In this document: positions 3,480-28,790 of the stretch, piece after piece
Numbering within the stretch: the first letter of the stretch is position 1
How the letters are laid out: every line of letters starts with the position of its first letter
The notes under the pieces: model-generated
Databases searched by the model: none
Told to the model about the DNA's origin: nothing
Seen by the model: only the letters and a program-made list of their open reading frames with translations
Source: a virus
Direction: 5' to 3' (one strand)
Virus record (IMG/VR): IMGVR_UViG_3300029798_000021
Coordinates: 1 to 32,362 of that record
Length of the DNA: 32,362 bases
Program-made: the position numbers and the translations under genes

Positions 3480-3983
3480 ATTTGTGAAATTTGAGTAATC
3501 AGTGCCATTCGTGAAATCAGGACAATTCGTGCCATTCGTGAAATCAAGATAAATCAGATTAATCCGTTTAATTCGTTCAATTTGTGGCATTTGTGTAATC
3601 CGTGCCATTTGTGTAATCCTCGGAATCCATTTAATTTGTGTAATTTGCGTAATCCGTGCCATTCGTGAAATCAGCATCATCCATTTAATCCGTTTAATTT
3701 GTGTAATTTGAGTAATCAGAGACATTCGAGAAATTAGTTCGATTCGTTTAATCCTTTCAATTTGTGTAATTTGCGTAATCCTTGCCATTCGTGAAATCAT
3801 GGGAATCCGTTTAATTTGTTAAATCCGTGCCATTCGTGAAATCACCATCATTCTTTTAATTCGTTCAATTTGAGAAATCCATGACATTTGTGAAATCAGC
3901 GCAATCCGTGCCATTCGTGAAATCAGCATCATCCATTTAATTCGTTCAATTCGTGAAATCATCCTAATCCGCGCCCTTCGTTA
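3480..3983. repeat. ~500-bp array of a degenerate 9-bp repeat between two tail genes
   Basis: The sequence is almost entirely nine-base units of the type ATTCGTGAA, ATCAGCATC, ATCCATTTA, ATTCGTTCA, about 55 in all. The AT[TC] anchor recurs every nine bases. One unit near 3545-3555 is ten bases (ATCAAGATAA), which shifts the phase once. Because nine is a multiple of three, the minus strand has a long open frame (3468-3800) reading as x-I-x triplets (RITQITQIERIKRI). After the one-base shift it reads as DFT-NGT-type triplets. The array ends at the stop codon of the tape measure gene and abuts the start of the next tail gene. I treat it as a repeat and not a gene. Confidence 0.9.
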
Positions 3984-9945: not shown

Positions 9946-10050
9946 CTATTACCTTATCATCATCCTTGTCGCATCGACCATTGCATCGGCATGGCAATTA
10001 CTGGAAGGGGTTGTTCGATGGGGCTGTCCAATCGAACCTTTCGAGTGGAC
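9946..10050 (-). pseudogene. decayed second copy of the 3' end of the 11490-12005 tail gene
   Basis: The minus strand contains two in-order fragments of the intact gene's C-terminus. A segment reading LDSPIEQPLPVI corresponds to FNPIIEQTLPEL. After a deletion and a frame change, VDATRMMIR followed by a stop (9949-9978) corresponds to VVNATRMMIR-stop of the intact gene. At the DNA level, 'CATCATCCTTGTCGCAT' is shared with the intact copy near 11500. The fragment lies on the far side of the 103-bp repeat/53-aa-gene cassette from the intact gene, so the two copies flank the cassette. Confidence 0.8.
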
Positions 10051-10285
10051 ATTGATACATTTTTTCGGGTTCTGGTCCATGGGGTTGCGAAGTAAAAGTG
10101 GCTTTGGCCAACTTTTGAAATAACGTCACCTAACCAAAAGTAAAGCTGGGGGACGTTGATACGTTTTTTCGGGGTCCGGTCCATTGGGTTGCGAAGTAAA
10201 AGTGGCTTTGCCAACTTTTGAAATAACGTCACCTAACCAAAAGTAGAGCTGGGGGACGTTGATACGTTTTTTCGGGTTCCGGCCC
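10046..10285. repeat. 103-bp repeat array 1 (two units plus a partial one)
   Basis: Units start with GTTGATACGTTTTTTCGGG at 10051 (as ATTGATAC), 10155 and 10258, giving periods of 104 and 103 bp. Each full unit holds two inverted repeats: AAAAGTGGC-TTT-GCC(A)ACTTTT, and AACGTC...GACGTT separated by about 24 bases. The third unit breaks off after about 28 bases into the terminator of the 53-aa gene. Confidence 0.9.
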
Positions 10286-10318
10286 TTGTTTCCGAAGTTG
10301 GCTCTTAATGTGCTGCCA

Positions 10319-10346
10319 CAAAAAAAGCCCGCTTTCGGGGCTTTTC
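10319..10346 (-). terminator. terminator of the 53-aa gene
   Basis: On the minus strand AAAAGCCCCGAAAGCGGGCTTTTTTT forms a short GC stem around GAAAGC and ends in a T tract, 20 nt after the stop codon at 10366. Confidence 0.9.
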
Positions 10347-10365
10347 CTGGTCAACAAGTTGCAGG

Positions 10366-10527
10366 TTACTTGTCGAAATTGATCAGTTCCCAGGAGGCAT
10401 ATTCTTCATTTTCTTCTTCCCATGCTTTAAGGCTGGCAGAATCCGTATTTGAAGCCCATTTGAATTGGAAATTAGTTGAAGGGTTTTCTACACTGTAATT
10501 TGCGGAAGTTTCTTTAGATGTTTTCAT
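10366..10527 (-). CDS. 53-aa acidic protein, duplicated at 25876-26052
   Basis: A short frame of 53 codons starts at the ATG at 10525-10527 (MKTSKETSANYSVENPSTNF) and stops at the TAA at 10366. It is rich in Ser, Asn and Glu and contains the cluster KAWEEENEEYASWELINFDK at its end. It is very likely real. A near-identical gene stands at 25876-26052 with the same leader and terminator, and substitutions between the copies (K/N, W/L, S/P) keep the frame open. No family or membrane segment was recognised, and the function is unknown. It carries the M-type leader directly upstream, and the 103-bp repeat surrounds the whole cassette. Confidence 0.75.
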   Translation of the reverse strand: MKTSKETSANYSVENPSTNFQFKWASNTDSASLKAWEEENEEYASWELINFDK

Positions 10528-10757
10528 GGCACAAAAATTTTAGTTAAAAATTATATGCCGGTTACAAGTGCGTCGTGGAGGGGCAGTCAAGGAGGAACTG
10601 GAATACCGGAAAGCAGTGAGGATATGCCGGGAAAATCCTTTAATGAGGGGACCGTTACCCGGAACGATACACAACCTTTGCAGAGAATTTCAACGGAATT
10701 TTGCCTTGGGAATAGCAAAACGGACGCCCAATCACATCGAAAACCTAAAAAACCAGT
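10528..10757 (-). repeat. M-type leader, copy 1
   Basis: The region directly upstream of the 53-aa gene is repeated before three other genes (22094, 26053 and 26922). Shared blocks are TTACAAGTGCG, GGAGGGGCAGTCAAGGAGGA, ATACCGGAAAGCAGTGAGGA and ACACAACCTTTGC (plus strand). This copy and the one at 26053 stay alike over a further ~100 bases (CCTAAATTCTGCCGG). Confidence 0.85.
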
Positions 10758-10885
10758 TTCCTAAGTTGGTGCCTAAATTCTGCCGGTCAAATCAAAAGGA
10801 AGAAAAATGAACTGCCACCGGTCTTATTACATTTGGCAAACCTGCAGTCCATTGGGAAAAGCTCAAAGGGGTTAAAGAATACGGG

Positions 10886-11410
10886 GGTTCAGGCCCATGG
10901 GGTTGCGAAGTAAAAGTGGCATTGCCAACTTTTGATATAACGTCACCTAACCAAAAGTAGAGCTGGGGGACGTTGATACGTTTTTTCGAGTTCCGTTCCA
11001 AGGGGTTCTGAAGTAAAAGTGGCTTTGCCAACTTTTGATATAACGTCACCAAACCAAAAGTAGAGCTGGGGGACGTTGATACGTTTTTTCTGGGTCCTGG
11101 TACATGGGGTTTTGAAGTAAAAGTGGCTTTGCCAACTTTTGAAATAACGTCACCTAACCAAAAGTAGATCTGTGGGGGACGTTGATACATTTTTTCGGGG
11201 TCCTAGTACATGGGGTTGCGAAGTAAAAGTGGCTTTGCCAACTTTTGAAATAACGTCACCTAACCAAAAGTAAAGCTGGGGGACGTTGATACGTTTTTTC
11301 GGGTTCCTGTCCATGGGGTTGCGAAGTAAAAGTGGCTTTGCCAACTTTTGAAATAACGTCACCTAACCAAAAGTAGAGCTGGGTGACGTTGATACATTTA
11401 TTCTGGGTCC
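10886..11410. repeat. 103-bp repeat array 2 (about five units)
   Basis: GTTGATAC anchors lie at 10972, 11075, 11181, 11285 and 11388, giving periods of 103, 106, 104 and 103 bp. The 106 and 104 spacings come from small insertions (for example GATCTGTGGGGG). Units keep AAAAGTGGC...GCCAACTTTTG and AACGTCACCTAACCAAAAGTA. The array runs directly into the region downstream of the tail gene ending at 11490. Confidence 0.92.
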
Positions 11411-11489
11411 TGGTTTGTGGCTTGACAGGTTGGTTCCCAAAAGTCAATGGCCAGGATGGGGACCGCGGGTTTCATCCTTTTTTAATTTC

Positions 11490-20986: not shown

Positions 20987-21379
20987 TTAAAGATTGATTT
21001 GGTTTTCAATCTCACGGACTTTTGAATCGAGGGTCCGTTTCATCTCGTCGATCACCGATGCAATCACCGGCGAATTCGATGTCTTGAACTCATTGCCGGC
21101 GGCATCTTTCAACAATAAAATCGAACTCATCGAATCGGCTCCGATGTTGAATGTCTGTAACTTACGGCGGCTTTCGTTCAACGTCCTCCACCTGTCGATC
21201 AGCAACGTGAGGTCCTCTACCCTTTGGATCCTTTCGTCCAAGGTGAGCTTCCGCGGCTCTTCCTTGATCTCGCTCTTTACAACCGTCATCACCGGAGCTG
21301 CAACAGCTTCAACGGCAGTTTCTTCGACAACTTCTGCAACACCATTGGTGATCTTCTCTGCAACACTTGCTTTTCCCAT
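20987..21379 (-). CDS. small helical protein, unknown (130 aa)
   Basis: An N-terminal Ala/Val/Glu-rich stretch (GVAEVVEETAVEAVAAPV, low complexity) leads to a helical region 'KLTLDERIQRVEDLTLLIDRWRTLNESRRKLQTFNIG' (about 44-80) that is probably a coiled coil. A C-terminal helix follows (IDEMKRTLDSKVREIENQINL). It is the last gene of the leftward small-gene series and has a full composite leader upstream, including the 38-bp element 10 nt from the start. No family was recognised. Size and helices suit an oligomeric accessory protein. Confidence 0.7.
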   Translation of the reverse strand: MGKASVAEKITNGVAEVVEETAVEAVAAPVMTVVKSEIKEEPRKLTLDERIQRVEDLTLLIDRWRTLNESRRKLQTFNIGADSMSSILLLKDAAGNEFKTSNSPVIASVIDEMKRTLDSKVREIENQINL

Positions 21380-21389
21380 AACACATCTG

Positions 21390-21669
21390 CCGCTGCCCTG
21401 CGGACTTATTGTGGCTTCTGGCTCGCCGTTAAACTTAAATTTCGGGCAAACCAGATTGAGCCGGGCGGATTCTTGTCAAGGGTGAATGTCTGAATCCCCT
21501 CCCTCACCCTTCGACTTCGCTCAGGGATCGGGAGGGGAATCTGACCAAACACGAAGTGCCTGAGGTTGCTGCACCAAGGGTTTCAATACTGCGGCAACCG
21601 GAAGGCCCTTGACGTTTCCGATCCGGCGATCAATACCTTTGCCCCGTAATTTGAGTATAACTAGTTATA
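21390..21669 (-). repeat. composite structured leader E1 (38-bp element at 21390-21427)
   Basis: The 38-bp element lies 10 nt before the start of the 130-aa gene, with stem CCGC-TGCCCT-GCGG. Further out are TTGAGCCGGGCGGAT (21456), a long hairpin with arms 21489-21503 and 21530-21544 (13 of 15 pairs) around TTCGACTTCGCTCAGG, CACGAAGTG, a second hairpin GGTTGCTGC/GCGGCAACC (21564-21572/21591-21599), and GGCGATCAATACCTTTG ending at 21641. A perfect palindrome, TATAACTAGTTATA, follows at 21656-21669. Confidence 0.88.
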
Positions 21670-21740
21670 TTTCAGAACACAAAATGAATACCGGAGACAG
21701 GAGAAGGAAACAAGAGAATGATAGTGGAGACTGCGACCAT

Positions 21741-21770
21741 AAAAAAAGCCCCGGTCAACGGGGCCTTTCT
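21741..21770 (-). terminator. terminator of the 106-aa gene
   Basis: On the minus strand GGCCCCGTTGACCGGGGCTTTTTTT forms a five-base GC stem with a T tract, just after the stop at 21773. Confidence 0.9.
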
Positions 21771-21772
21771 CC

Positions 21773-22093
21773 TTAAAAAGGCAATTCGTCCTGATCAGCT
21801 TTGGCTGTCGATTTTTTCTTGTTTGTGGCCGGTTGCGCGGAAGCTTTCTTGTCCTGCCTTTTTGGTTCAGATTCATCGACCTCTTCTTCAGTGTTTACAT
21901 AAACGGTGTATTCGCGGCCAAAATTGTCAGGTTGCTTCATCTTTGCGACCTCGAAGGTGACATACGCCACATTGCCATCTTTGTAGAAGTAGGCAAATTT
22001 CTCAAGGTCTTCCAGTTTGCAGGTGATCTTTGCAATTTGCCCTCCGGCAACTCCTTTTCCTTTTCCAATGTAGTTTTTTACGAATGTTTTCAT
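21773..22093 (-). CDS. small conserved protein with SSB-like acidic tip (106 aa); paralog of 26613-26921
   Basis: The first 74 residues (MKTFVKNYIGKGKGV...VTFEVAKMKQPDNFGREYTVYV) align with the paralog without gaps. The pattern 'KITCKLEDLEKFAYFYKDG' and 'FGR.YTVYV' occurs in small proteins of Bacteroidota mobile elements. After an acidic EEEVDESE and a Lys/Ala-rich linker the protein ends ADQDELPF. This closely resembles the acidic C-terminal tip (DDDIPF-type) by which single-stranded-DNA-binding proteins recruit partners. The paralog lacks this tip. An M-type leader stands directly upstream. A DNA-metabolism role is inferred from the tip only. Confidence 0.75.
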   Translation of the reverse strand: MKTFVKNYIGKGKGVAGGQIAKITCKLEDLEKFAYFYKDGNVAYVTFEVAKMKQPDNFGREYTVYVNTEEEVDESEPKRQDKKASAQPATNKKKSTAKADQDELPF

Positions 22094-22255
22094 GACAGCG
22101 ATTTTTAGTTTAAAATTATGTGCAGGTTACAAGTGCGCCGTGGAGGGGCAGTCAAGGAGGAACTGGAATACCGGAAAACAGTGAGGATATGCCGGGAAAA
22201 TCCTTGAATGAGGGGACCGATACCCGGAGCGGTACACAACCTTTGCATGGAATTT
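22094..22255 (-). repeat. M-type leader, copy 2
   Basis: The same leader as before the 53-aa gene: TTACAAGTGCG, GGAGGGGCAGTCAAGGAGGA, ATACCGGAAAACAGTGAGGA and ACACAACCTTTGC on the plus strand. Similarity to the other copies stops near 22255. Confidence 0.85.
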
Positions 22256-22587
22256 GGAACAAAAACTGTCAGCAGGACATGCCGGAAAATTTGGGAAGGG
22301 GAATTTGCGGGGGCAGCAGCCATTAATCAACCAAAACGCGAAGGACTTTTTTTTGCCACAAAAGAGGGATGGGGCAATGTCGCCAGGCAGCAATAGAAAC
22401 CCGACAGGGCGCAACATAACCAAGTAAACACGAAGTGGGGGTTGCCAAAAAGAGCAGGACGGTTCCGGGCTGTCCCAAATTGGCACAAAAAAAACGTTGC
22501 CGAAGCAGGAGGATGCCCATTAAGGCGAAAGGCCATTGATCGGGGCTTCGGAAAAAAGGGGAGCAATGTTGGGATTTGTGGGGTTAT
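22256..22587. other. 330-bp stretch without a clear gene
   Basis: Frames open here on both strands, but none shows protein-like composition. The word AAACACGAAGTG at 22426-22437 matches the CACGAAGTG block of the composite leaders, so this may hold a decayed leader element. Otherwise nothing was recognised. Confidence 0.4.
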
Positions 22588-22619
22588 CGACCAAAAAAGG
22601 GGGAACCCCTTTTCTTTTT
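22588..22619 (-). terminator. terminator of the zinc-ribbon gene
   Basis: On the minus strand AAAAGGGGTTCCCCCTTTTTT forms a GGGG/CCCC hairpin with flanking A and T runs, just after the stop at 22621. Confidence 0.85.
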
Positions 22620-22620
22620 T

Positions 22621-22842
22621 TCAACAGGCATACGGGTTTCCGGTGCCTGCATAGACCTCTTCGTCTGCTACCGAAGATAGGAACTTGCGGTAAGGTGCAT
22701 CGCCACATGTGGGACAAAACACCTCACGCGACGATGGCCAATAATAAACCGAAGTCCCCTTCTGGATCTTCGTTTTGCATTTGGAGCAAGTGGACGAGAA
22801 CTTGGCTGTGATCAGCCGTGGATCATTCGAATAATGTGACAT
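22621..22842 (-). CDS. small zinc-ribbon protein (73 aa)
   Basis: The sequence STCSKCKTKIQKGTSVYYWPSSREVFCPTC (about 17-46) has two CxxC knuckles 22 residues apart, the spacing of a zinc ribbon or PARP-type small zinc finger. The N-terminus MSHYSNDPRLITAKF leads straight into it, and the C-terminus is short. The fold suggests nucleic-acid or protein binding without enzyme activity. A 38-bp leader element lies nine nt before the start, and that element is itself the end of the coding region of the upstream gene. Confidence 0.75.
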   Translation of the reverse strand: MSHYSNDPRLITAKFSSTCSKCKTKIQKGTSVYYWPSSREVFCPTCGDAPYRKFLSSVADEEVYAGTGNPYAC

Positions 22843-22848
22843 GGAAAA

Positions 22849-23229
22849 TTACCGCTGCCTTGCGGGTTTGTTTTGGCACCTGGCACGCCTGTTTGTTTTA
22901 ATTACTAAGTTTTCAACCGAATCGACAATGAACCCTTTGTCGCGGTGGTGGACAATGGTGGGAATTTCCATAAATCCCATGTTGACGTAGGTAAAAAGGA
23001 TATTGCCCCAATAACCGTTCTGCCATTCGCCCTCCACCAATTCGACACCAAACCCAAAGAGGATCTGGTCGAAAGCGCACATCTTTTGTTCATCGAGCCT
23101 CGGTGGGTTGAAGCACTTTGAGAGCCAATGCCTTACGTGCGAGAATTCTTTGGGGTCAAGTTTGTTCGAAAGGATCTTTCTGATATTGGATTCCTGCTGT
23201 GGATTAAGGTCGAGAATTTTTAAGTCCAT
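22849..23229 (-). CDS. unknown accessory protein (126 aa) whose C-terminus is encoded by the leader
   Basis: MDLKILDLNPQQESNIRKIL starts at 23229. The middle has 'EFSHVRHWLSKCFNPPRLDEQKMCAFDQILFGFGVELVEGEW' and 'IPTIVHHRDKGFIVDSVENLV'. The latter looks like the end of the real fold, because the last ~15 residues (TNRRARCQNKPARQR) are a translation of the 38-bp leader of the next gene. The stop lies six nt before the next start codon. It is preceded by its own short 38-bp leader with a CCCC/GGGG stem. No family was recognised. The globular composition supports a real protein. Confidence 0.75.
   Translation of the reverse strand: MDLKILDLNPQQESNIRKILSNKLDPKEFSHVRHWLSKCFNPPRLDEQKMCAFDQILFGFGVELVEGEWQNGYWGNILFTYVNMGFMEIPTIVHHRDKGFIVDSVENLVIKTNRRARCQNKPARQR
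22852..22889 (-). promoter_or_regulatory. short 38-bp leader for the zinc-ribbon gene
   Basis: CCGC-TGCCTT-GCGG (plus strand) is followed by GGTTTGTTTTGGCACCTGG and CACGCC, nine nt before the start at 22842. It lies inside the coding region of the upstream gene. Confidence 0.85.
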
Positions 23230-23238
23230 AAAAAAATG

Positions 23239-23276
23239 CCCCTGCCCTGGGGACTTGCTGTGGCTACTGGCACGCC
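23239..23276 (-). promoter_or_regulatory. short 38-bp leader for the 126-aa gene, with a changed stem
   Basis: The plus strand has CCCC-TGCCCT-GGGG in place of CCGC-TGCCCT-GCGG. The stem changed on both sides and the loop is kept. TGGCTACTGGCACGCC follows. Distance to the start codon is nine nt. Confidence 0.85.
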
Positions 23277-23292
23277 GTTAAAAAAAAATCTG

Positions 23293-23475
23293 TTACTCTA
23301 CCGATGTGATCACAAGGCGGCCATTCTCAACAGCCACTTTGATCATTTTCGATGGTTCGAAGCCGGCTTCCTGTAACCAGTTGCCGCATAGGGTCAACTT
23401 TGGGACTTTCTTGGGTACCCGGTCATACTTCCCTTGCCGGTACTGTGGCTGAAGCTTGATGATGCGTGGTTCCAT
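23293..23475 (-). CDS. SymE-like toxin-family protein (60 aa)
   Basis: Residues 25-60 (PKLTLCGNWLQEAGFEPSKMIKVAVENGRLVITSVE) carry the SymE core: 'P.L.L.G.WL.EAGF..G..I.V.VE.G.LVI', an AbrB-like beta fold. SymE is an SOS-induced RNA-cleaving toxin controlled by an antisense RNA in E. coli. Many SymE-like genes in mobile elements have not been tested. The N-terminus (MEPRIIKLQPQYRQGKYDRV) is basic. It lies four nt after the preceding gene's stop, so it is co-transcribed and has no leader element of its own. An antisense RNA is not visible. Confidence 0.8.
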   Translation of the reverse strand: MEPRIIKLQPQYRQGKYDRVPKKVPKLTLCGNWLQEAGFEPSKMIKVAVENGRLVITSVE

Positions 23476-23479
23476 ATCG

Positions 23480-23902
23480 TTAGTCCTCCGATGGTTTCAT
23501 GATGAATATTGCGGGCGACGGATCGTCAATATCCTGCGCGGTGATCACTGCCTTCAACTTTACCAACCGGTTCAGACGAGCGTCCCCGTGCCGGTATTCG
23601 TTGGCTTCCCAGTCGCCATCATCGTTCAACCGGCAGACAAACTTGAACGAAATGGTTGCGGTTTCACATTTTTTGGCGGCATGCATGAACATCCAGAGGA
23701 TATCCCAAAGTCGGCCATTTAAATCCTGCTCGTTACCCAACCCCTCCGGGACTTCGACATATTTTGACCAAGCTGCCTGGGTGAGGTACACCGGGTAAAT
23801 TATGCCACATTCCTTCGACTGCCCATCGGCAACCCGGACCAAAGAACCGTCCTGTACGGCTTCTTTTGTGGTGTAGGTCGAAATGATCTTACAATTTTCC
23901 AT
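23480..23902 (-). CDS. DUF6573-like protein (140 aa)
   Basis: The N-terminus has 'ISTYTTKEAVQDGSLVRVADGQSKECGIIYPVYLTQAAW', where 'Y...EAV.DG.LV' followed by 'A...G...PV..T...W' is the hallmark of DUF6573 proteins found on plasmids and phages. A helical middle (GRLWDILWMFMHAAKK) and a C-terminal beta part (ATISFKFVCRLNDDGDW..., LKAVITAQDIDDPSPAIFIMKP) follow, in keeping with the family. Full length appears present. A 38-bp element lies nine nt upstream as part of a composite leader, and the SymE-like gene follows after four nt. Biochemical function is unknown. Confidence 0.8.
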   Translation of the reverse strand: MENCKIISTYTTKEAVQDGSLVRVADGQSKECGIIYPVYLTQAAWSKYVEVPEGLGNEQDLNGRLWDILWMFMHAAKKCETATISFKFVCRLNDDGDWEANEYRHGDARLNRLVKLKAVITAQDIDDPSPAIFIMKPSED

Positions 23903-23911
23903 TTGATTTCA

Positions 23912-24151
23912 CCGCTGCCCTGCGGGTTTGTTTTGGCTTCTGGCTCGCCTATTAATTTGAACCAGTAGAGATTGAGCCGGGCGGATCAGGTCAAGGGTGA
24001 ATGTCAGATTTTTAACCTTACCCTTCGGCTTCGCTCAGGGACCGGTTAAAAATCTGAACTCACACGAAGTGCCGGAGTGTGCTGCATATGGATTGAAAGC
24101 GGCAGCACACGCAAGCCCTTTACCGTTCCGCATCGGCGATCAATAACTTTG
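23912..24151 (-). repeat. composite structured leader E4 (38-bp element at 23912-23949)
   Basis: The 38-bp element is followed by TTGAGCCGGGCGGATCAGG. A perfect 13-bp hairpin comes next: CAGATTTTTAACC at 24005-24017 with GGTTAAAAATCTG at 24044-24056, loop TTCGGCTTCGCTCAGG. Then come CACGAAGTG, a perfect 9-bp hairpin GTGTGCTGC/GCAGCACAC (24077-24085/24102-24110) and GGCGATCAATAACTTTG, ending at 24151. Confidence 0.92.
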
Positions 24152-24277
24152 GTGAAAATTGTAGGAGAGAGAATCTCCTCAGAGATTGATAAGTTCTGAA
24201 GGTTGTTTTTCTTATGACGGATTCTGGGGTTCAAAGGTAAATTTCTATAACAATGTAATATCCTAAACGACAATTGT

Positions 24278-24916
24278 TTAGTAAAATTGCTTCTCAACCT
24301 GGCTTTTAACGTACAGTTGATGGAAGGTATCCAGTGAGTTGAACCGAAGCAGGTAGTCGATCTGAACGATGGTAAGCCGTGCCATGTCAAAGTATCTTTC
24401 GATGTCGGGATACCTGGCCTTCAGCATTTTCAGTTTAAGTTTGGAAGCTTCGAAAAGCAGGGTCTTGCTGCTTCCCAAGGTATATGCCGAAACAACATTT
24501 CCACCGTTCGACTCGATGTAGGTCTTGAGACCTTTCAATGTCGCGCCTGTGGTAAAGACATCATCGACGAGGATATATTTTCCGGCAGGTACATCACCGG
24601 AGTATTCCGGATCGAAGTACATCCTGTCGATCATCGAATCTCCCGGACGGTTGTTCATCAGAAAAATTGAGCCACAAAGTTCTGAATTGGAATTTTCGAC
24701 GATCCTTGTGGCCAGTGCCAATGGGATCTTGTTGCCTGTTGGTTTTTGCACCGGACAAACAAAACCTGTTAATTGCATGAAGGCATCAAAATCCCTGACC
24801 AGTTCATCGATCAGCAAAAAGGCAGACTCAAGGCTGCCACTGTTGGCGGCTTTGTAATGTTTGTTCCGGAGCATTGTGTTTGTGTTCGACAACCGGTGGA
24901 TAAGGTTAATTTTCAT
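24278..24916 (-). CDS. phosphoribosyltransferase-like protein (212 aa)
   Basis: Residues 114-128 (KYILVDDVFTTGATL) are the PRPP-binding loop of type I phosphoribosyltransferases: two acidic residues followed by T-T-G-A-T, with preceding beta-strand hydrophobics. The N-terminal half includes 'SAFLLIDELVRDFDAFMQLTGFVCPVQKPTGNKIPLALATRIVEN'. The start at 24916 (MKINLIHRLSNT) is chosen over 24988 because the longer frame runs through the 38-bp leader element. Such genes in phages may act in nucleotide salvage or modification. The substrate cannot be judged. It lies in series with the SLOG gene, which also handles nucleotides. Confidence 0.8.
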   Translation of the reverse strand: MKINLIHRLSNTNTMLRNKHYKAANSGSLESAFLLIDELVRDFDAFMQLTGFVCPVQKPTGNKIPLALATRIVENSNSELCGSIFLMNNRPGDSMIDRMYFDPEYSGDVPAGKYILVDDVFTTGATLKGLKTYIESNGGNVVSAYTLGSSKTLLFEASKLKLKMLKARYPDIERYFDMARLTIVQIDYLLRFNSLDTFHQLYVKSQVEKQFY

Positions 24917-24924
24917 GGGGTACA

Positions 24925-25172
24925 CCGCTGCCCTGCGGTTTTGTATTGGCTTCTGGCCCGCCGTTATGATCAAATTTCGGGCGGACACCGTTGAGCCGGG
25001 CGGATTGGGTCAAGGGTGGATGTCACTTTTCGCCCCTTTTCACTTCGGCTTCGCTCAGTGAACGGGGCGAAAAGTGAACCCACACGAAGTGACGGCGGGT
25101 GCTGCAGCCATTGTTTCGATCAGTGGCACCCAAAGTCCCTTGACGTTTCCGACCTGGCGATCAATAACTTTG
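24925..25172 (-). repeat. composite structured leader E5 (38-bp element at 24925-24962)
   Basis: The 38-bp element stands eight nt from the start at 24916. TTGAGCCGGGCGGATTGGG follows, then a perfect 14-bp hairpin TCACTTTTCGCCCC (25023-25036)/GGGGCGAAAAGTGA (25064-25077) with inner TTCACT/AGTGAA and loop TCGGCTTCGCTC. CACGAAGTG, GGGTGC/GCACCC (25097-25102/25126-25131) and GGCGATCAATAACTTTG complete it. Confidence 0.92.
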
Positions 25173-25211
25173 CGCGGAATTTGGGCATGACAGGATCTCT
25201 AACGATATCTG

Positions 25212-25562
25212 TTATGTGAACCTGATGATCCTCAATTGCTTTCCCAGACTATTGGCTTTGTCGATCATGTGCAGGGTGCCAGGCGATTTCCCGTCCCAAA
25301 AAGCGATTACATGGGTGCAGGCTTTTAATATTGTCAGATTTCTTTTCATGCCGGCACTTTTCCCATGCAGGTCCCAATCGGCTTTGTACACCTCGACGGG
25401 AAAGTTCTTCTCCGCAGCATATTTTTCGGCGAGCCTGTCGGTACCCCTTGCACCTCCCGAAACGATCTCAACAGATTTTGAATTGGACAGTATGGAATCA
25501 CATTTTACCTTCAACAGTTCATAATCGGTAAAGCTCCTTGATCCTATAATTGCAACTTTCAT
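25212..25562 (-). CDS. SLOG-family (DUF2493/YspA-like) nucleotide-binding protein (116 aa)
   Basis: It begins MKVAIIGSRSFTDYELL, the Rossmann-like first strand with 'GSR.F.D' of DUF2493. 'EIVSGGARGTDRLAEKYA' (33-50) is the SLOG signature loop (SGGA.G.D), which binds a nucleotide or nucleotide derivative. 'VEVYKADWDLHGKSAGMKRN' follows, as in YspA-like proteins. The protein is complete at the typical length of about 115 residues. SLOG proteins are found in nucleotide-signal sensing or hydrolysis and in anti-phage systems. The role here is not known. The neighbour downstream is the phosphoribosyltransferase-like gene. Confidence 0.88.
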   Translation of the reverse strand: MKVAIIGSRSFTDYELLKVKCDSILSNSKSVEIVSGGARGTDRLAEKYAAEKNFPVEVYKADWDLHGKSAGMKRNLTILKACTHVIAFWDGKSPGTLHMIDKANSLGKQLRIIRFT

Positions 25563-25571
25563 AATGGTTTA

Positions 25572-25764
25572 CCACTGCCCTGTGGGTTTCTATTGGCTCC
25601 TGGCCCGCCGTTAATTTCCGTCAAGCAAGGTTGAGCCGGGCGGATTAGGTCAAGGGTGAATGTCAGAAAATAACCCCCTTCGACTTCGCTCAGGGACCGG
25701 TTATTTTCTGAACAAACACGAAGTGCCTGCCCTTTACTGTTCCGCATGGCGATCAATAACTTTG
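25572..25764 (-). repeat. composite structured leader E6 (38-bp element at 25572-25609), short form
   Basis: The stem reads CCAC-TGCCCT-GTGG, a compensated change on both sides. TTGAGCCGGGCGGATTAGG follows, then a perfect 13-bp hairpin TCAGAAAATAACC (25663-25675)/GGTTATTTTCTGA (25699-25711) with loop TTCGACTTCGCTCAGG. CACGAAGTG leads straight to CCTTTACTGTTCCG and GGCGATCAATAACTTTG, and the second hairpin is missing. Confidence 0.9.
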
Positions 25765-25771
25765 ACGGCAA

Positions 25772-25843
25772 TTAGCTGGGGGATTTTTTCTCCAGATCCT
25801 TCCATTTTCCGGATGTGGCTTTCTGTTCCTTATCTTGCGACAT
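25772..25843 (-). CDS. possible 23-aa microprotein
   Basis: An ATG at 25841-25843 opens MSQDKEQKATSGKWKDLEKK and stops at 25772. It starts right after the terminator of the 58-aa gene, and its end abuts the outer end of composite leader E6. The composition is charged and plausible, but the frame is short and no comparison is available. It could equally be chance or a gene remnant. Confidence 0.25.
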   Translation of the reverse strand: MSQDKEQKATSGKWKDLEKKSPS

Positions 25844-25873
25844 AAAAAAAAGCCCACTTTCGGGGCTTTTCCT
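25844..25873 (-). terminator. terminator of the 58-aa gene
   Basis: On the minus strand AAAAGCCCCGAAAGTGGGCTTTTTTTT forms the same hairpin as at 10319-10346, three nt after the stop at 25876. Confidence 0.88.
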
Positions 25874-25875
25874 GA

Positions 25876-26052
25876 TCAACAAGTTGCAGGTTCCTTGTCG
25901 ATATTGATAAGTTCCCAGGAGGCATATTCTTCATTTTCTTCTTCCCATGCTTTAAGGCTGGCAGAATCCGTATTTGGGGCCAATCTGAACTGGAAATTTG
26001 TTGAAGGGTTTTCTACACTGTAATTTGCGGAAGTTTCATTAGCTGTTTTCAT
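25876..26052 (-). CDS. 58-aa acidic protein, paralog of the 53-aa gene at 10366
   Basis: It starts at 26052 (MKTANETSANYSVENPSTNF) and aligns with the 53-aa protein over its full length. The last shared residues are KAWEEENEEYASWELIN(I/F)DK. The TAA stop of the other copy is GAA here, so five residues (EPATC) are added before a TGA. It has the same M-type leader and the same terminator hairpin. The differences are mostly substitutions that keep the frame, as expected if both copies make protein. Function unknown. Confidence 0.75.
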   Translation of the reverse strand: MKTANETSANYSVENPSTNFQFRLAPNTDSASLKAWEEENEEYASWELINIDKEPATC

Positions 26053-26340
26053 GGCACAAAAATTTTAGTTAAAAATTATATGCAGGTTACAAGTGCGTCG
26101 CGGAGGGGAAGTCAAGGAGGAACTGGAATACCGGAAAGCAGTGAGGATATGCCGGGAAAATCCTTGAATGAGGGGACCGTTACCCGGAACGATACACAAC
26201 CTTTGCAGAGAATTTCAACGGAATTTTGCCTTGGGAATAGCAAACGGATGCCCAATTACAGAGAAAACCTAAAAACTGGTTTCATATATTGGCGCCTAAA
26301 TTCTGCCGGCCAAACCATAAGGAAGAAAAATGATCTGCCG
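26053..26340 (-). repeat. M-type leader, copy 3, with extended similarity to copy 1
   Basis: It shares the core blocks with copies 1, 2 and 4. With copy 1 alone it also shares the outer part (AATTTCAACGGAATTTTGCC, CCTAAATTCTGCCGG, AGGAAGAAAAATGA). Confidence 0.85.
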
Positions 26341-26420
26341 CCGGACTTAAACAATTGTCAAACCTGCTGCCTATCGGGAAAAGACCGAAGGGGCCAAACC
26401 AATTGGGAGCTGCATTTTAT

Positions 26421-26525
26421 TTGGGGTTAACTAAAAGTGGCTTTGGCCATCTTTTGATATAACGTCGCCTATCCAAGAGTAATCCTGGGGGACGTTGGTA
26501 CTTTCTTCCTGTGTTCCTGTTTGTG
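26421..26525. repeat. single decayed unit of the 103-bp repeat
   Basis: AAAAGTGGCTTTGGCCATCTTTTG, ATATAACGTCGCCTATCCAA and CTGGGGGACGTTGGTAC follow the order of a full unit with several substitutions. It lies upstream of M-leader copy 3, as array 2 lies upstream of copy 1. Confidence 0.8.
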
Positions 26526-26566
26526 GATCCTAAGGAGGTTGGGTGGGGTGCCAATGTTGCGACCAT

Positions 26567-26594
26567 AAAAAAAGCCCCTGTTGTGGGGCCTTTC
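26567..26594 (-). terminator. terminator of the 102-aa gene
   Basis: On the minus strand AAAGGCCCCACAACAGGGGCTTTTTTT forms a GCCCC/GGGGC stem with a T tract, 19 nt after the stop. Confidence 0.9.
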
Positions 26595-26612
26595 TTGCTT
26601 TGCAGGCAACTT

Positions 26613-26921
26613 TTACATTGTGCTTTTGGCTTTTTCTTTTTGGGAGGGTTTGCCGGTTCGTGCGGCAGGTGCTTTGTCCTTGCCCTTTTTTGGGGCTTCG
26701 TCTTCGGCTTCCTCCTCTGTTTGCACATAAACGGTATAGTCGCGTCCAAAATTGTCGGGTTTTTTCATTTTTGCAACCTCGAAGGTGACATACTCCTCTA
26801 CTCCATCTTTGTAACAGTAGGCAAAATTTTGAAGGTCCTCCAGTTTGCAGGTAATTTTAACGATGTCCAGGGTGGCAACTTTCTTACCTTTTCCAATGTA
26901 ATTTTTTTTGTACGTTTTCAT
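26613..26921 (-). CDS. paralog of the 106-aa protein, without the SSB-like tip (102 aa)
   Basis: It starts at 26921 with MKTYKKNYIGKGKKVATLDI. A longer in-frame reading from 27092 runs through the M-type leader and is rejected. It aligns gap-free with the 21773-22093 protein through 'VTFEVAKMK.PDNFGR.YTVYV.TEEE'. The C-terminal tail is Lys/Pro/Ala-rich (APKKGKDKAPAARTGKPSQK) and ends KSTM, not DELPF. The leader is M-type copy 4. Two divergent paralogs under the same leader suggest a past duplication of gene plus leader. Confidence 0.75.
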   Translation of the reverse strand: MKTYKKNYIGKGKKVATLDIVKITCKLEDLQNFAYCYKDGVEEYVTFEVAKMKKPDNFGRDYTVYVQTEEEAEDEAPKKGKDKAPAARTGKPSQKEKAKSTM

Positions 26922-27085
26922 GACAGTAAATTTTAGTTTAAAAATTATATGCAGGTTACAAGTGTGTCGTGGAGGGGCAGTCAAGGAGGAATTGGAATAC
27001 CGGAACGCAGTGAGGATATGCCGAGAAAATCCTTGAATGAGGGGACCGATACCAGGAACGATACACAACCTTTGCGTAGAATTTA
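26922..27085 (-). repeat. M-type leader, copy 4
   Basis: TTACAAGTGTG, GGAGGGGCAGTCAAGGAGGA, ATACCGGAACGCAGTGAGGA and ACACAACCTTTGC on the plus strand. Similarity ends near 27085. Confidence 0.85.
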
Positions 27086-27440
27086 ACAACAAAATTCTGT
27101 CGCCAAAAACAAATCAAAAACAACCATTGGCTAAAGGTAATTTGCCAAATTGGTACACCGGAATACCAAAAACGTGGGGAACGCAAATTGCCACATTTAC
27201 AGATGGTGCCGGGAGGGTGTTGCCAGGTTCAAAAAATACGCCCTTTTCAATTCTGGCATACCAATATTTATGCGACCACAAACGGGGATGCCAAGCCACA
27301 AAGCAATGCTCAAAGCCATGCCAAAAAAAACCAAGCCACTTGCCCCAAAACAGCCAAAGGCACAAATGTTGCCGCAAAAGCGGGACGGACAACAACGGGG
27401 CAGCTGTATCCAGGAGCAAGTGTTTCATTGGGGAACGAGC
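27086..27440. other. 355-bp stretch without a clear gene
   Basis: Open frames exist on both strands, but they are rich in Lys/Pro/Gln or Cys/Phe and do not look like folded proteins. It is C/A-rich on the plus strand. No shared repeat was seen. Confidence 0.4.
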
Positions 27441-27468
27441 AAAAAAGGGGTTTTTCTCCCCTTTTTTT
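27441..27468 (-). terminator. terminator of the 97-aa gene
   Basis: GGGG and CCCC around TTTTTCT are flanked by an A run and a T run. It lies four nt after the stop at 27473 on the minus strand. Confidence 0.88.
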
Positions 27469-27472
27469 GTTG

Positions 27473-27766
27473 TCATTTCATTTTTGAGGCTCTCCTGGCA
27501 ACCGGGAACCGTTTTATATTTTCGTAACGGTCGGTTATCTTGGCCAGGTTGTTGTAACGGTCGGAATTGAAATTGTTCAGCAGCCATATCGTTTCGGCCA
27601 CAAGGGCAATGTTCATCGCGTAGTTATCGATGGTCTTGTAATAAGTACTGTCCCGGACTTTTGTGGTAAAGGTATAGTCGTTCATCTTCCGGATCAGGCC
27701 GATGCGAAGGGACTCGAACCTCCTTTGGGATTGGGACATACTATCGAGGAACTGGTGTTCTGTCAT
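27473..27766 (-). CDS. unknown small helical protein (97 aa)
   Basis: It starts at 27766 (MTEHQFLDSMSQSQRRFESL). The frame stays open to 27925, but that part translates the 38-bp leader and the end of the preceding gene in another frame. The protein is helical with 'YYKTIDNYAMNIALVAETIWLLNNFNSDRYNNLAKITDRYENI', and no membrane segment is obvious. Its ATG overlaps the stop of the preceding gene (ATGA), so it is translationally coupled while also carrying the leader nine nt upstream. No family was recognised. Confidence 0.7.
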   Translation of the reverse strand: MTEHQFLDSMSQSQRRFESLRIGLIRKMNDYTFTTKVRDSTYYKTIDNYAMNIALVAETIWLLNNFNSDRYNNLAKITDRYENIKRFPVARRASKMK

Positions 27767-27996
27767 TGGTTTTTGCCGCTGCGCTGCGGACTTGTTGTGG
27801 CACCTGGCACGCCGGGTTTGGTTTTGTTGTCCAGTATCTTGTCCCACAACCGGTTCATCTTTTGCTTTTCTGTCCTGGATGCCTTGAAACCAAAAAAGGC
27901 CTTGCCAAACAGCGACCAGCCACAAATGGCCAATTCATAAATTTCATCGTTTGTCTTTCCGTGGAGTTTTAAAGCGGTAATTTTCTTGTTGTTCAT
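27763..27996 (-). CDS. unknown small protein (77 aa) with leader-encoded C-terminus
   Basis: It starts at 27996 with MNNKKITALKLHGKTNDEIYELAICGW, where the HGKTNDEIYELA part resembles a helix-turn-helix-like region. 'LFGKAFFGFKASRTEKQKMNRLWDKILDN' follows. The last ~20 residues (TKPGVPGATTSPQRSGKNQ) are translated from the next gene's 38-bp leader. They are in a different frame from the comparable extension of the 126-aa protein, so the peptide itself is not conserved. The stop overlaps the next start by four bases. It has its own 38-bp leader eight nt upstream. Confidence 0.7.
   Translation of the reverse strand: MNNKKITALKLHGKTNDEIYELAICGWSLFGKAFFGFKASRTEKQKMNRLWDKILDNKTKPGVPGATTSPQRSGKNQ
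27776..27813 (-). promoter_or_regulatory. short 38-bp leader for the 97-aa gene
   Basis: CCGC-TGCGCT-GCGG, then GACTTGTTGTGGCACCTGG and CACGCC on the plus strand, nine nt from the start at 27766. It lies wholly inside the upstream coding region. Confidence 0.85.
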
Positions 27997-28004
27997 TTTG
28001 AATG

Positions 28005-28042
28005 CCGCTGCCCTGCGGACTTGTTGTGGCACCTGGCACGCC
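28005..28042 (-). promoter_or_regulatory. short 38-bp leader for the 77-aa gene
   Basis: CCGC-TGCCCT-GCGG, then GACTTGTTGTGGCACCTGG and CACGCC on the plus strand, eight nt from the start at 27996. It lies in the 63-bp gap after the RadC-like gene. Confidence 0.85.
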
Positions 28043-28059
28043 GGATTTGGTTTTGTTGT

Positions 28060-28503
28060 TTAAAGTTGGCCGTCGTCCGCCATCGAGTGGAAACCGTCGG
28101 TTGTGAGGATGATGTGGTCCACCAAGGCGATGTTCAGGATCTTTCCGGCATCTTTGACCTCACGGGTTATTTTCTTATCTGTTTCACTTGGCTCAAGATT
28201 CCCAGATGGATGGTTGTGGGCAATTATTATTGCGCTGGCATTTGCTTTGAGCGCAACCTGATAGATGACCCTCAGGTCGATAATTGTGCCTGTGATGCCG
28301 CCTTTGGATACCTGGTGGTAACCGAGGATCTGGTTTTGTCGGTTGAGCATTATCATGTACATAAATTCGATGTGGTCGTAAGACGGCCAAAATTCTCGTA
28401 ACGCACTGGCAACGGACTGCGATCCAACAACCTTGAACCGGTCAACGGATTTTACAGGGTTCGAATAGGTAATCTGGACTTCTGCAAGGAATTCTGGAAT
28501 CAT
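28060..28503 (-). CDS. RadC/JAB-domain protein (147 aa)
   Basis: Residues 96-101 are HNHPSG, followed by SETD at 106-109. Together they form the JAMM/JAB zinc motif (H-x-H-P-x7-S-x2-D) of RadC-type proteins. The part before it ('FMYMIMLNRQNQILGYHQVSKGGITGTIIDLRVIYQVALKANASAIIIAH') is also typical. The N-terminal helix-hairpin part of chromosomal RadC is absent, as in the short RadC proteins often found in mobile elements. The exact function is unresolved (DNA processing or anti-defence have been proposed). It is the first gene of the leftward small-gene series and carries a full composite leader. Confidence 0.9.
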   Translation of the reverse strand: MIPEFLAEVQITYSNPVKSVDRFKVVGSQSVASALREFWPSYDHIEFMYMIMLNRQNQILGYHQVSKGGITGTIIDLRVIYQVALKANASAIIIAHNHPSGNLEPSETDKKITREVKDAGKILNIALVDHIILTTDGFHSMADDGQL

Positions 28504-28512
28504 GGTTTTTCA

Positions 28513-28790
28513 CCGCTGCCCTGCGGGTTTGTGTTGGCATCTGGCTCGCCGTTAAACTTAAATTTCGGGCAAACCAGAATTGAGCCGGGCGGATCAGGTC
28601 AAGGGAGAATGTCAGTTTTCGCCCCTTTTCACTTCGGCTCCGCTCAGTGAACGGGGCTAAAAGTGAACAAACACGAAGTGCCGGGAAGGGGCAATATTGT
28701 TGGGGATTTGGTGATGTGAGCCTGGACGGCCCTTTACCGTTCCGCCCCGGCGATCAATAACTTTGCGCGGAATTTGAGTGTAATAGTTTA
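28513..28790 (-). repeat. composite structured leader E9 (38-bp element at 28513-28550)
   Basis: The 38-bp element stands nine nt from the start. Next comes a block shared almost exactly with E1 (TTAAACTTAAATTTCGGGCA, then TTGAGCCGGGCGGAT). A hairpin with arms 28612-28625/28653-28666 (12 of 14 pairs) follows, with inner TTCACT/AGTGAA and loop TCGGCTCCGCTC. CACGAAGTG and GGCGATCAATAACTTTG (to 28765) complete it. The second hairpin is poorly kept. GCGCGGAATTTGAGT beyond the box is also shared with E1. Confidence 0.88.

Follow-up and report, generated by a model that had tools for sequence, protein, structure and literature searches.

Analysis of a 32-kb IMG/VR virus record (IMGVR_UViG_3300029798_000021; the whole stretch of 32,362 nucleotides is referred to as the window) revealed a cis-acting structured RNA of about 39 nucleotides (nt), which would make up the portion of the 5' leader nearest the start codon in many unrelated mobile-element genes. 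Sequence comparison established its fold, its strand, its fixed spacing to the start codon, and its spread over unrelated genes. The reading that we favor, at a probability of roughly 0.55, is that of a kissing-hairpin leader acting at translation initiation and read by the host 30S ribosomal subunit or by a host protein. A scan of the window with a pattern made of the invariant columns of the element recovered exactly nine copies of 38 nt each, all on the minus strand, while the reversed pattern used as a control gave no match. These are the nine copies reported in the original prediction, which was made from the letters of the window, and its statement that an ATG follows at a spacing of 8–10 nt applies to all nine.

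Fold and covariation

In the predicted fold, one hairpin is P1 (GGC/GCC) and the other is P2 (a stem of 4 bp and one pair across a bulge); a loop-loop pairing of 3 bp, P3 (GCC/GGC), joins them. A 39th base also belongs to the element, namely a purine two bases 5' of the P2 stem, which pairs with the first base after the stem (G-C in 76 copies, A-U in 59, G-U in one, and other combinations in two). In the window, the P2 stem changes in pairs (CCGC/GCGG, CCCC/GGGG, and CCAC/GTGG), and these changes had been taken originally as a sign of selection on a folded form. The covariation remained strong when more copies were aligned: for a model of P1, P2, and P3 on 138 distinct copies, 98.6% of the cells were paired and 143 double changes were counted, while controls with slid partners reached at most 46% paired cells and 21 double changes.

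Since the pattern used for retrieval had fixed some of the paired bases, blind scans with freed bases were run. With the six variable P2 bases free, all three pairs formed in 50 of 50 distinct matches with 14 different combinations, and an ATG followed at the usual distance in 48 of these matches. When P1 was freed, 31 of 39 matches were paired; seven of the other eight had the GGC displaced by one base, and the remaining one, which lacks a start codon, looks like a chance match. With P3 free, all 26 matches read GCC/GGC. For a held-out set of 44 copies, drawn from other genomes, 99.6% of the cells paired, far more than in slid controls, and compensatory changes were seen in P1, P2, and P3, with GGU/ACC (six times) or GGG/CCC (once) in P1 and, in P3, three replacements of G-C by A-U and four wobbles. 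Among the training copies, one had GUU/AAC as P3 (L067:4514). Altogether, the aligned sequences make P1 and P2 firm and P3 well supported, though the latter rests on few changes. It is the sense strand that folds, because G-U pairs outnumber A-C mismatches by 38 to 6. The unpaired positions are highly conserved as well, in particular an A-rich linker, the AG in P1, and the loop A-GGC-A.

Longer variants of 57–96 nt carry an additional peripheral hairpin of 5–7 bp at one site in the P1 loop and retain the core and the ATG spacing. Two leaders of one locus (L158, 2816–2908 and 5343–5438, minus strand) harbored a hairpin (CCCTGAGC...GAAGTCGAAGGG) similar to repetitive extragenic palindromic (REP) elements exactly at this site, again with core and spacing unaltered.

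Position at the start codon

Nearly all copies lie at start codons: of the 159 distinct copies in the scanned leader-bearing loci, 158 lie in front of one, the sole exception being a copy cut off by a contig end. For the 158 copies with sequence beyond the element, the ATG follows 8–10 nt downstream in 155 cases and 11 or 12 nt downstream in the other three. With respect to operon organization, 73 of 150 copies come first in an operon and after a promoter-like module, and 47 are intercistronic, i.e., they have no such module and either lie behind an upstream reading frame or overlap with it. Upstream stop codons cluster 10–30 nt before the element, and several upstream frames run through it, including those at 22852 and 27776 of the window. 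Both sets of copies are equally conserved. Since each cistron has its own copy and a transcription signal would be needless before internal cistrons, and since the fixed spacing sets P2 where a Shine-Dalgarno helix would lie, the element probably acts on the mRNA at translation initiation, which supports the original prediction of a signal acting in translation.

The leader shares its position with the Shine-Dalgarno sequence, which lies 7–9 nt before the start codon (PMC6847099), but it is a folded structure of 39 nt and not a single-stranded purine run, and the mRNAs of Bacteroidota, the phylum in which it is found, lack Shine-Dalgarno sequences. Its start-proximal bases do not form a single-stranded complement of the 16S rRNA 3' end; they are base-paired within P2, whose pairs vary freely. 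A conserved structure with compensatory changes at a fixed position of the 5' leader on the sense strand was found instead, as expected for a structured cis-regulatory leader RNA.

The leaders of the window and their context

The nine leaders of the window are as follows (all minus strand):

21390–21427, 10 nt before the ATG of a 130-aa protein (20987–21379)
22852–22889, 9 nt before the ATG of a zinc-ribbon-like protein (22621–22842); inside the reading frame that precedes it (22849–23229), at the 3' end of that frame
23239–23276, stem CCCC/GGGG; precedes a 126-aa protein (22849–23229)
23912–23949, precedes a DUF6573 protein (23480–23902)
24925–24962, precedes a phosphoribosyltransferase-like protein (24278–24916; 18 bits, under the Pfam cut-off of 26.3)
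25572–25609, stem CCAC/GTGG; precedes a YspA-type SLOG protein (25212–25562)
27776–27813, loop AGCGCA, which disrupts one P3 pair; precedes a 97-aa protein (27473–27766); inside the reading frame that precedes it (27763–27996), at the 3' end of that frame
28005–28042, precedes a 77-aa protein (27763–27996)
28513–28550, precedes a RadC-like JAB protein (28060–28503)

The window encodes a tail tape-measure protein and shows weak portal similarity, so a tailed prophage or phage fragment is its likely context. Eight of the nine leader copies recur, flanked by identical sequence, on a 10-kb contig (CAIYPA010000561.1) from a metagenome-assembled genome of an uncultured Bacteroidia, which likely represents the same element. 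Further repeats in the window comprise at least seven copies of a repeat of approximately 103 nt at 10047–11414, with another copy at 26429–26514, and a dense repeat with a 9-nt period (ATTYGTG... units) at 3480–3980 adjoining the tape-measure gene.

Distribution and hosts

A partial pattern with 20 fixed bases was used to search viral and genome contigs, resulting in matches in 28 viral and 66 genome contig stretches (94 in total). Chance can be excluded for this set, since nearly all matches are from Bacteroidota and nearly all have an ATG at the same spacing. A covariance model identified the element in only one of 395 genomes drawn across the phylum, namely the seed genome (two weak matches in other genomes look like chance), and in 19 of 295 genomes of one order, a seed included. 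The number of copies per genome ranged from 1 to 22. Such a patchy distribution is the pattern of mobile DNA. Three contigs with leader copies were binned as Patescibacteria, Gracilibacteria, and Oceanicaulis (L073, L080, and L047, respectively). Because the covariance model found no copy in 191 other Patescibacteria genomes, they are probably misbinned Bacteroidota mobile DNA. Comparison of a 49-nt consensus with an annotated phage collection gave no match, and its matches in a plasmid collection (23 nt, E 0.8, Enterobacteria) were dismissed as chance. Likewise, three weak model matches (L127–L129) were set aside as chance or unrelated, with no start codon at the usual spacing.

Genes behind the leader

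Proteins encoded behind the leader fall into about 32 clusters, and the genes are unrelated, as had been proposed from the window. Pfam names assigned to them include RadC (22), the ArdC N-terminal domain (20), DUF6573 (10), SymE (4), DnaJ (4), and YspA SLOG (3), together with single cases of RecT, ArdA, PcfK, DNA methylases, and others. Many of these genes blunt host defenses. On four contigs, copies lie 0.6–30 kb from the conjugation gene traN (DUF4138), with TraM beside traN on one of them, and on three other contigs copies lie about 7–20 kb from a phage tape-measure gene. The leader is thus common to conjugative elements and prophages, which argues for a reader provided by the host. No single gene family was present in all 107 leader-bearing loci, most of which are only about 8 kb long; its companions included RadC (47 of 107), a small coiled-coil-like protein (44 of 107), and a protein with an SSB-like tip (31 of 107). 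The window encodes two proteins of about 100 aa (21773–22093 and 26613–26921), the first of which, like many relatives in these 31 loci, ends in DELPF/EDDLPF, resembling the acidic tip of SSB. An AlphaFold model of this SSB-tipped protein displayed a small beta-rich domain, and a fold search against the PDB gave no significant match.

A putative hairpin-promoter module upstream of operon-first leaders

Tens to about 230 nt upstream of 46 operon-first copies lies an imperfect inverted repeat, the arms of which measure about 45 nt. These large inverted repeats covary, both in the window modules and across the 46 loci, and native arms pair better than swapped arms (mean of −37.7 vs. −31.5). Read as its reverse complement, the distal arm shows TTGAC or TTTAC followed after 21–22 nt by TANNTTTG; of 43 modules, 33 carry the latter at this place and none has it on the gene-proximal sense arm. 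Of the two strands, it is the one opposite the genes that gives the better fold, in 33 of 43 modules and in all five modules of the window, which are (modules on the minus strand, putative outward promoters on the plus strand):

28551–28790, upstream module with a consensus-like putative promoter at 28733–28765, directed away from the gene
25610–25790, upstream module with a putative outward promoter at 25733–25764
24963–25200, upstream module with a putative outward promoter at 25140–25172
23950–24180, upstream module with a putative outward promoter at 24119–24151
21428–21670, upstream module with a putative outward promoter at 21609–21641

In this layout, the hairpin arms join both strands of a consensus promoter, which is what would be expected of a single-stranded DNA promoter such as Frpo. 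In conjugative plasmids, Frpo drives early anti-defense genes (PMC11541004). The modules share with Frpo/ssi a long imperfect hairpin that holds promoter boxes and their complements in front of anti-restriction and SSB-like mobile-element genes (PMC11541004), but they differ in their Bacteroidota-type −33/−7 boxes and in their occurrence in prophages. They are putative single-stranded DNA promoters, and the use of such promoters in phages would need explaining. A second type of repeated hairpin leader/promoter precedes small proteins with an SSB-like acidic tip. Its four copies in the window (10506–10690, 22071–22255, 26031–26215, and 26900–27084) are 84–97% identical, precede small proteins without the 38-nt leader, and fold better on the plus strand in four of four cases.

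Comparison with known RNA families

Searching the nine copies of the window against 4227 families of Rfam 15 resulted in no match at E-values up to 5. In 20 further leader-bearing loci, the only Rfam match was to the DUF805b RNA, away from the leaders; the leader thus did not group with any Rfam family, including DUF805b (RF02914), radC (RF01754), and HTH-XRE (RF02923). The DUF805b RNA (clan CL00115) is likewise short and cis-regulatory, and a similar pseudoknot can be drawn from its consensus AAGGcGGAAgCCGAAAAgCCUuAAaAGAGUAGGcA with a GGC/GCC stem, a loop GCC, and a downstream GGCA, but it has no P2 hairpin, and the leader did not qualify as a member of its family. The match itself, at gathering level (L025:3504–3537, minus strand), does not look like a start-codon leader; it can be read as a short open frame that immediately follows a promoter-like TATATTTG. 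Riboswitches of the size of preQ1-I and phage RNA operators also place a compact pseudoknot at the ribosome-binding position. They serve one gene or pathway, whereas the leader serves about 32 unrelated families. The radC RNA is a cis-regulatory candidate named for radC as well, but is listed for Proteobacteria (PMC2864571) and had no match in the window. A literature search of partial coverage found no paper describing the element. By its sequence features, we would class it among the cis-regulatory leader RNAs, where it is unusual in that the genes it serves are unrelated, number in the dozens, and have it at a fixed distance before their start codons.

Mode of action and alternative explanations

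Together, P1, P2, and P3 form a compact kissing-hairpin pseudoknot ending 8–10 nt before the AUG. In the favored reading, the host's 30S subunit, or a protein encoded by the host that acts together with it, would dock onto this fold or be gated by it. Incoming elements would thereby gain efficient or controlled translation of their establishment genes in hosts without Shine-Dalgarno usage. We prefer this explanation because the spacing is tight, the element types differ, and there is no common gene. Bacteroidota ribosomes show no Shine-Dalgarno usage (PMC6847099, PMC9976891). For Flavobacterium johnsoniae, whose ribosomes do not engage in Shine-Dalgarno pairing, well-translated genes have little structure from −20 to +20 and adenines at −3 and −6 (PMC6847099). 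A conserved fold ending at −8 to −10 departs from this rule, so the initiation machinery would either have to read it or be gated by it. A stronger form, in which the RNA is self-sufficient and portable, docks on the 30S subunit in place of a Shine-Dalgarno sequence, and acts as a start signal of conjugative elements and phages resembling an internal ribosome entry site, is, in our view, less likely than not. Several points weigh against the favored reading. P3 is invariant in most copies, its covariation consisting of four double-changed copies (L067, L173, L174, and L180) and wobbles. The predicted folding energy was no better than that of shuffled sequence (z −0.53 to 0.75), so the fold rests on covariation and not on stability, which suggests selection on shape. 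The copies are related by descent and transfer, and the counts given above are not independent events. Finally, structure between −20 and +20 generally goes along with low translation in F. johnsoniae (PMC6847099), which fits an OFF switch too.

Such a translational OFF switch or operator would act in the manner of phage RNA operators or riboswitches of preQ1 size: binding of a protein or small molecule to the kissing-hairpin fold would block initiation, and all establishment genes of an element would form one translational regulon. We consider this close rival a serious possibility, albeit at clearly less than even odds. The conserved unpaired positions suggest that a partner is bound, structure close to start codons normally reduces translation in Bacteroidota (PMC6847099), and every cistron carries a copy, as in coordinated translational repression; yet no gene family was found that is common to all leader-bearing elements and might be the repressor, the spacing of 8–10 nt is tighter than simple occlusion requires, and the genes behind the leader share no pathway naming a ligand. 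It is improbable that the element acts as DNA, i.e., as a promoter, a single-stranded DNA hairpin signal, or a recombination site. The location of leaders in mobile elements and the large hairpin in front of operon-first copies, which resembles single-stranded DNA promoters, would fit, but the wobbles indicate a folded sense strand, whereas a single-stranded DNA promoter would fold the template strand, intercistronic copies have no promoter module, and orientation and ATG distance are fixed. Wobble asymmetry and intercistronic copies led us to reject the single-stranded DNA reading for the leader itself. We also found it very unlikely that the element imitates the 530 loop of 16S rRNA (GUGCCAGCAGCC) and thereby attracts one of the ribosomal proteins or factors that normally bind this loop. 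The leader sequence GNGCCAGNNGCC matches the 530 loop GTGCCAGCAGCC (16S rRNA of L130), in which a GCC pairs with an upstream GGC as in P1, but the match scored 14.2 bits against a 95% level of 15.0 for shuffled sequence, is not significant, and concerns a sub-window chosen afterwards; moreover, P2 has no counterpart in the rRNA. Hardly tenable is a REP-like repetitive element spread by chance beside genes. Nine copies in one window and REP-like hairpins nearby, even inserted into two leaders, might recall such an element, but this is already contradicted by the fixed strand and spacing before start codons, the compensatory changes, and the low copy number of 1–22 per genome.

Start-codon selection in Bacteroidota, which proceeds without Shine-Dalgarno pairing, poses an open question (PMC6847099). 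The leader, a compact RNA set at a fixed spacing and common to dozens of unrelated genes and to two kinds of mobile elements, would offer a direct handle on this selection. Furthermore, anti-defense and establishment genes in mobile elements of Bacteroidota, many still uncharacterized, would carry in the leader a sequence tag that is independent of homology, and the leader could be used as a genetic part in Bacteroides.

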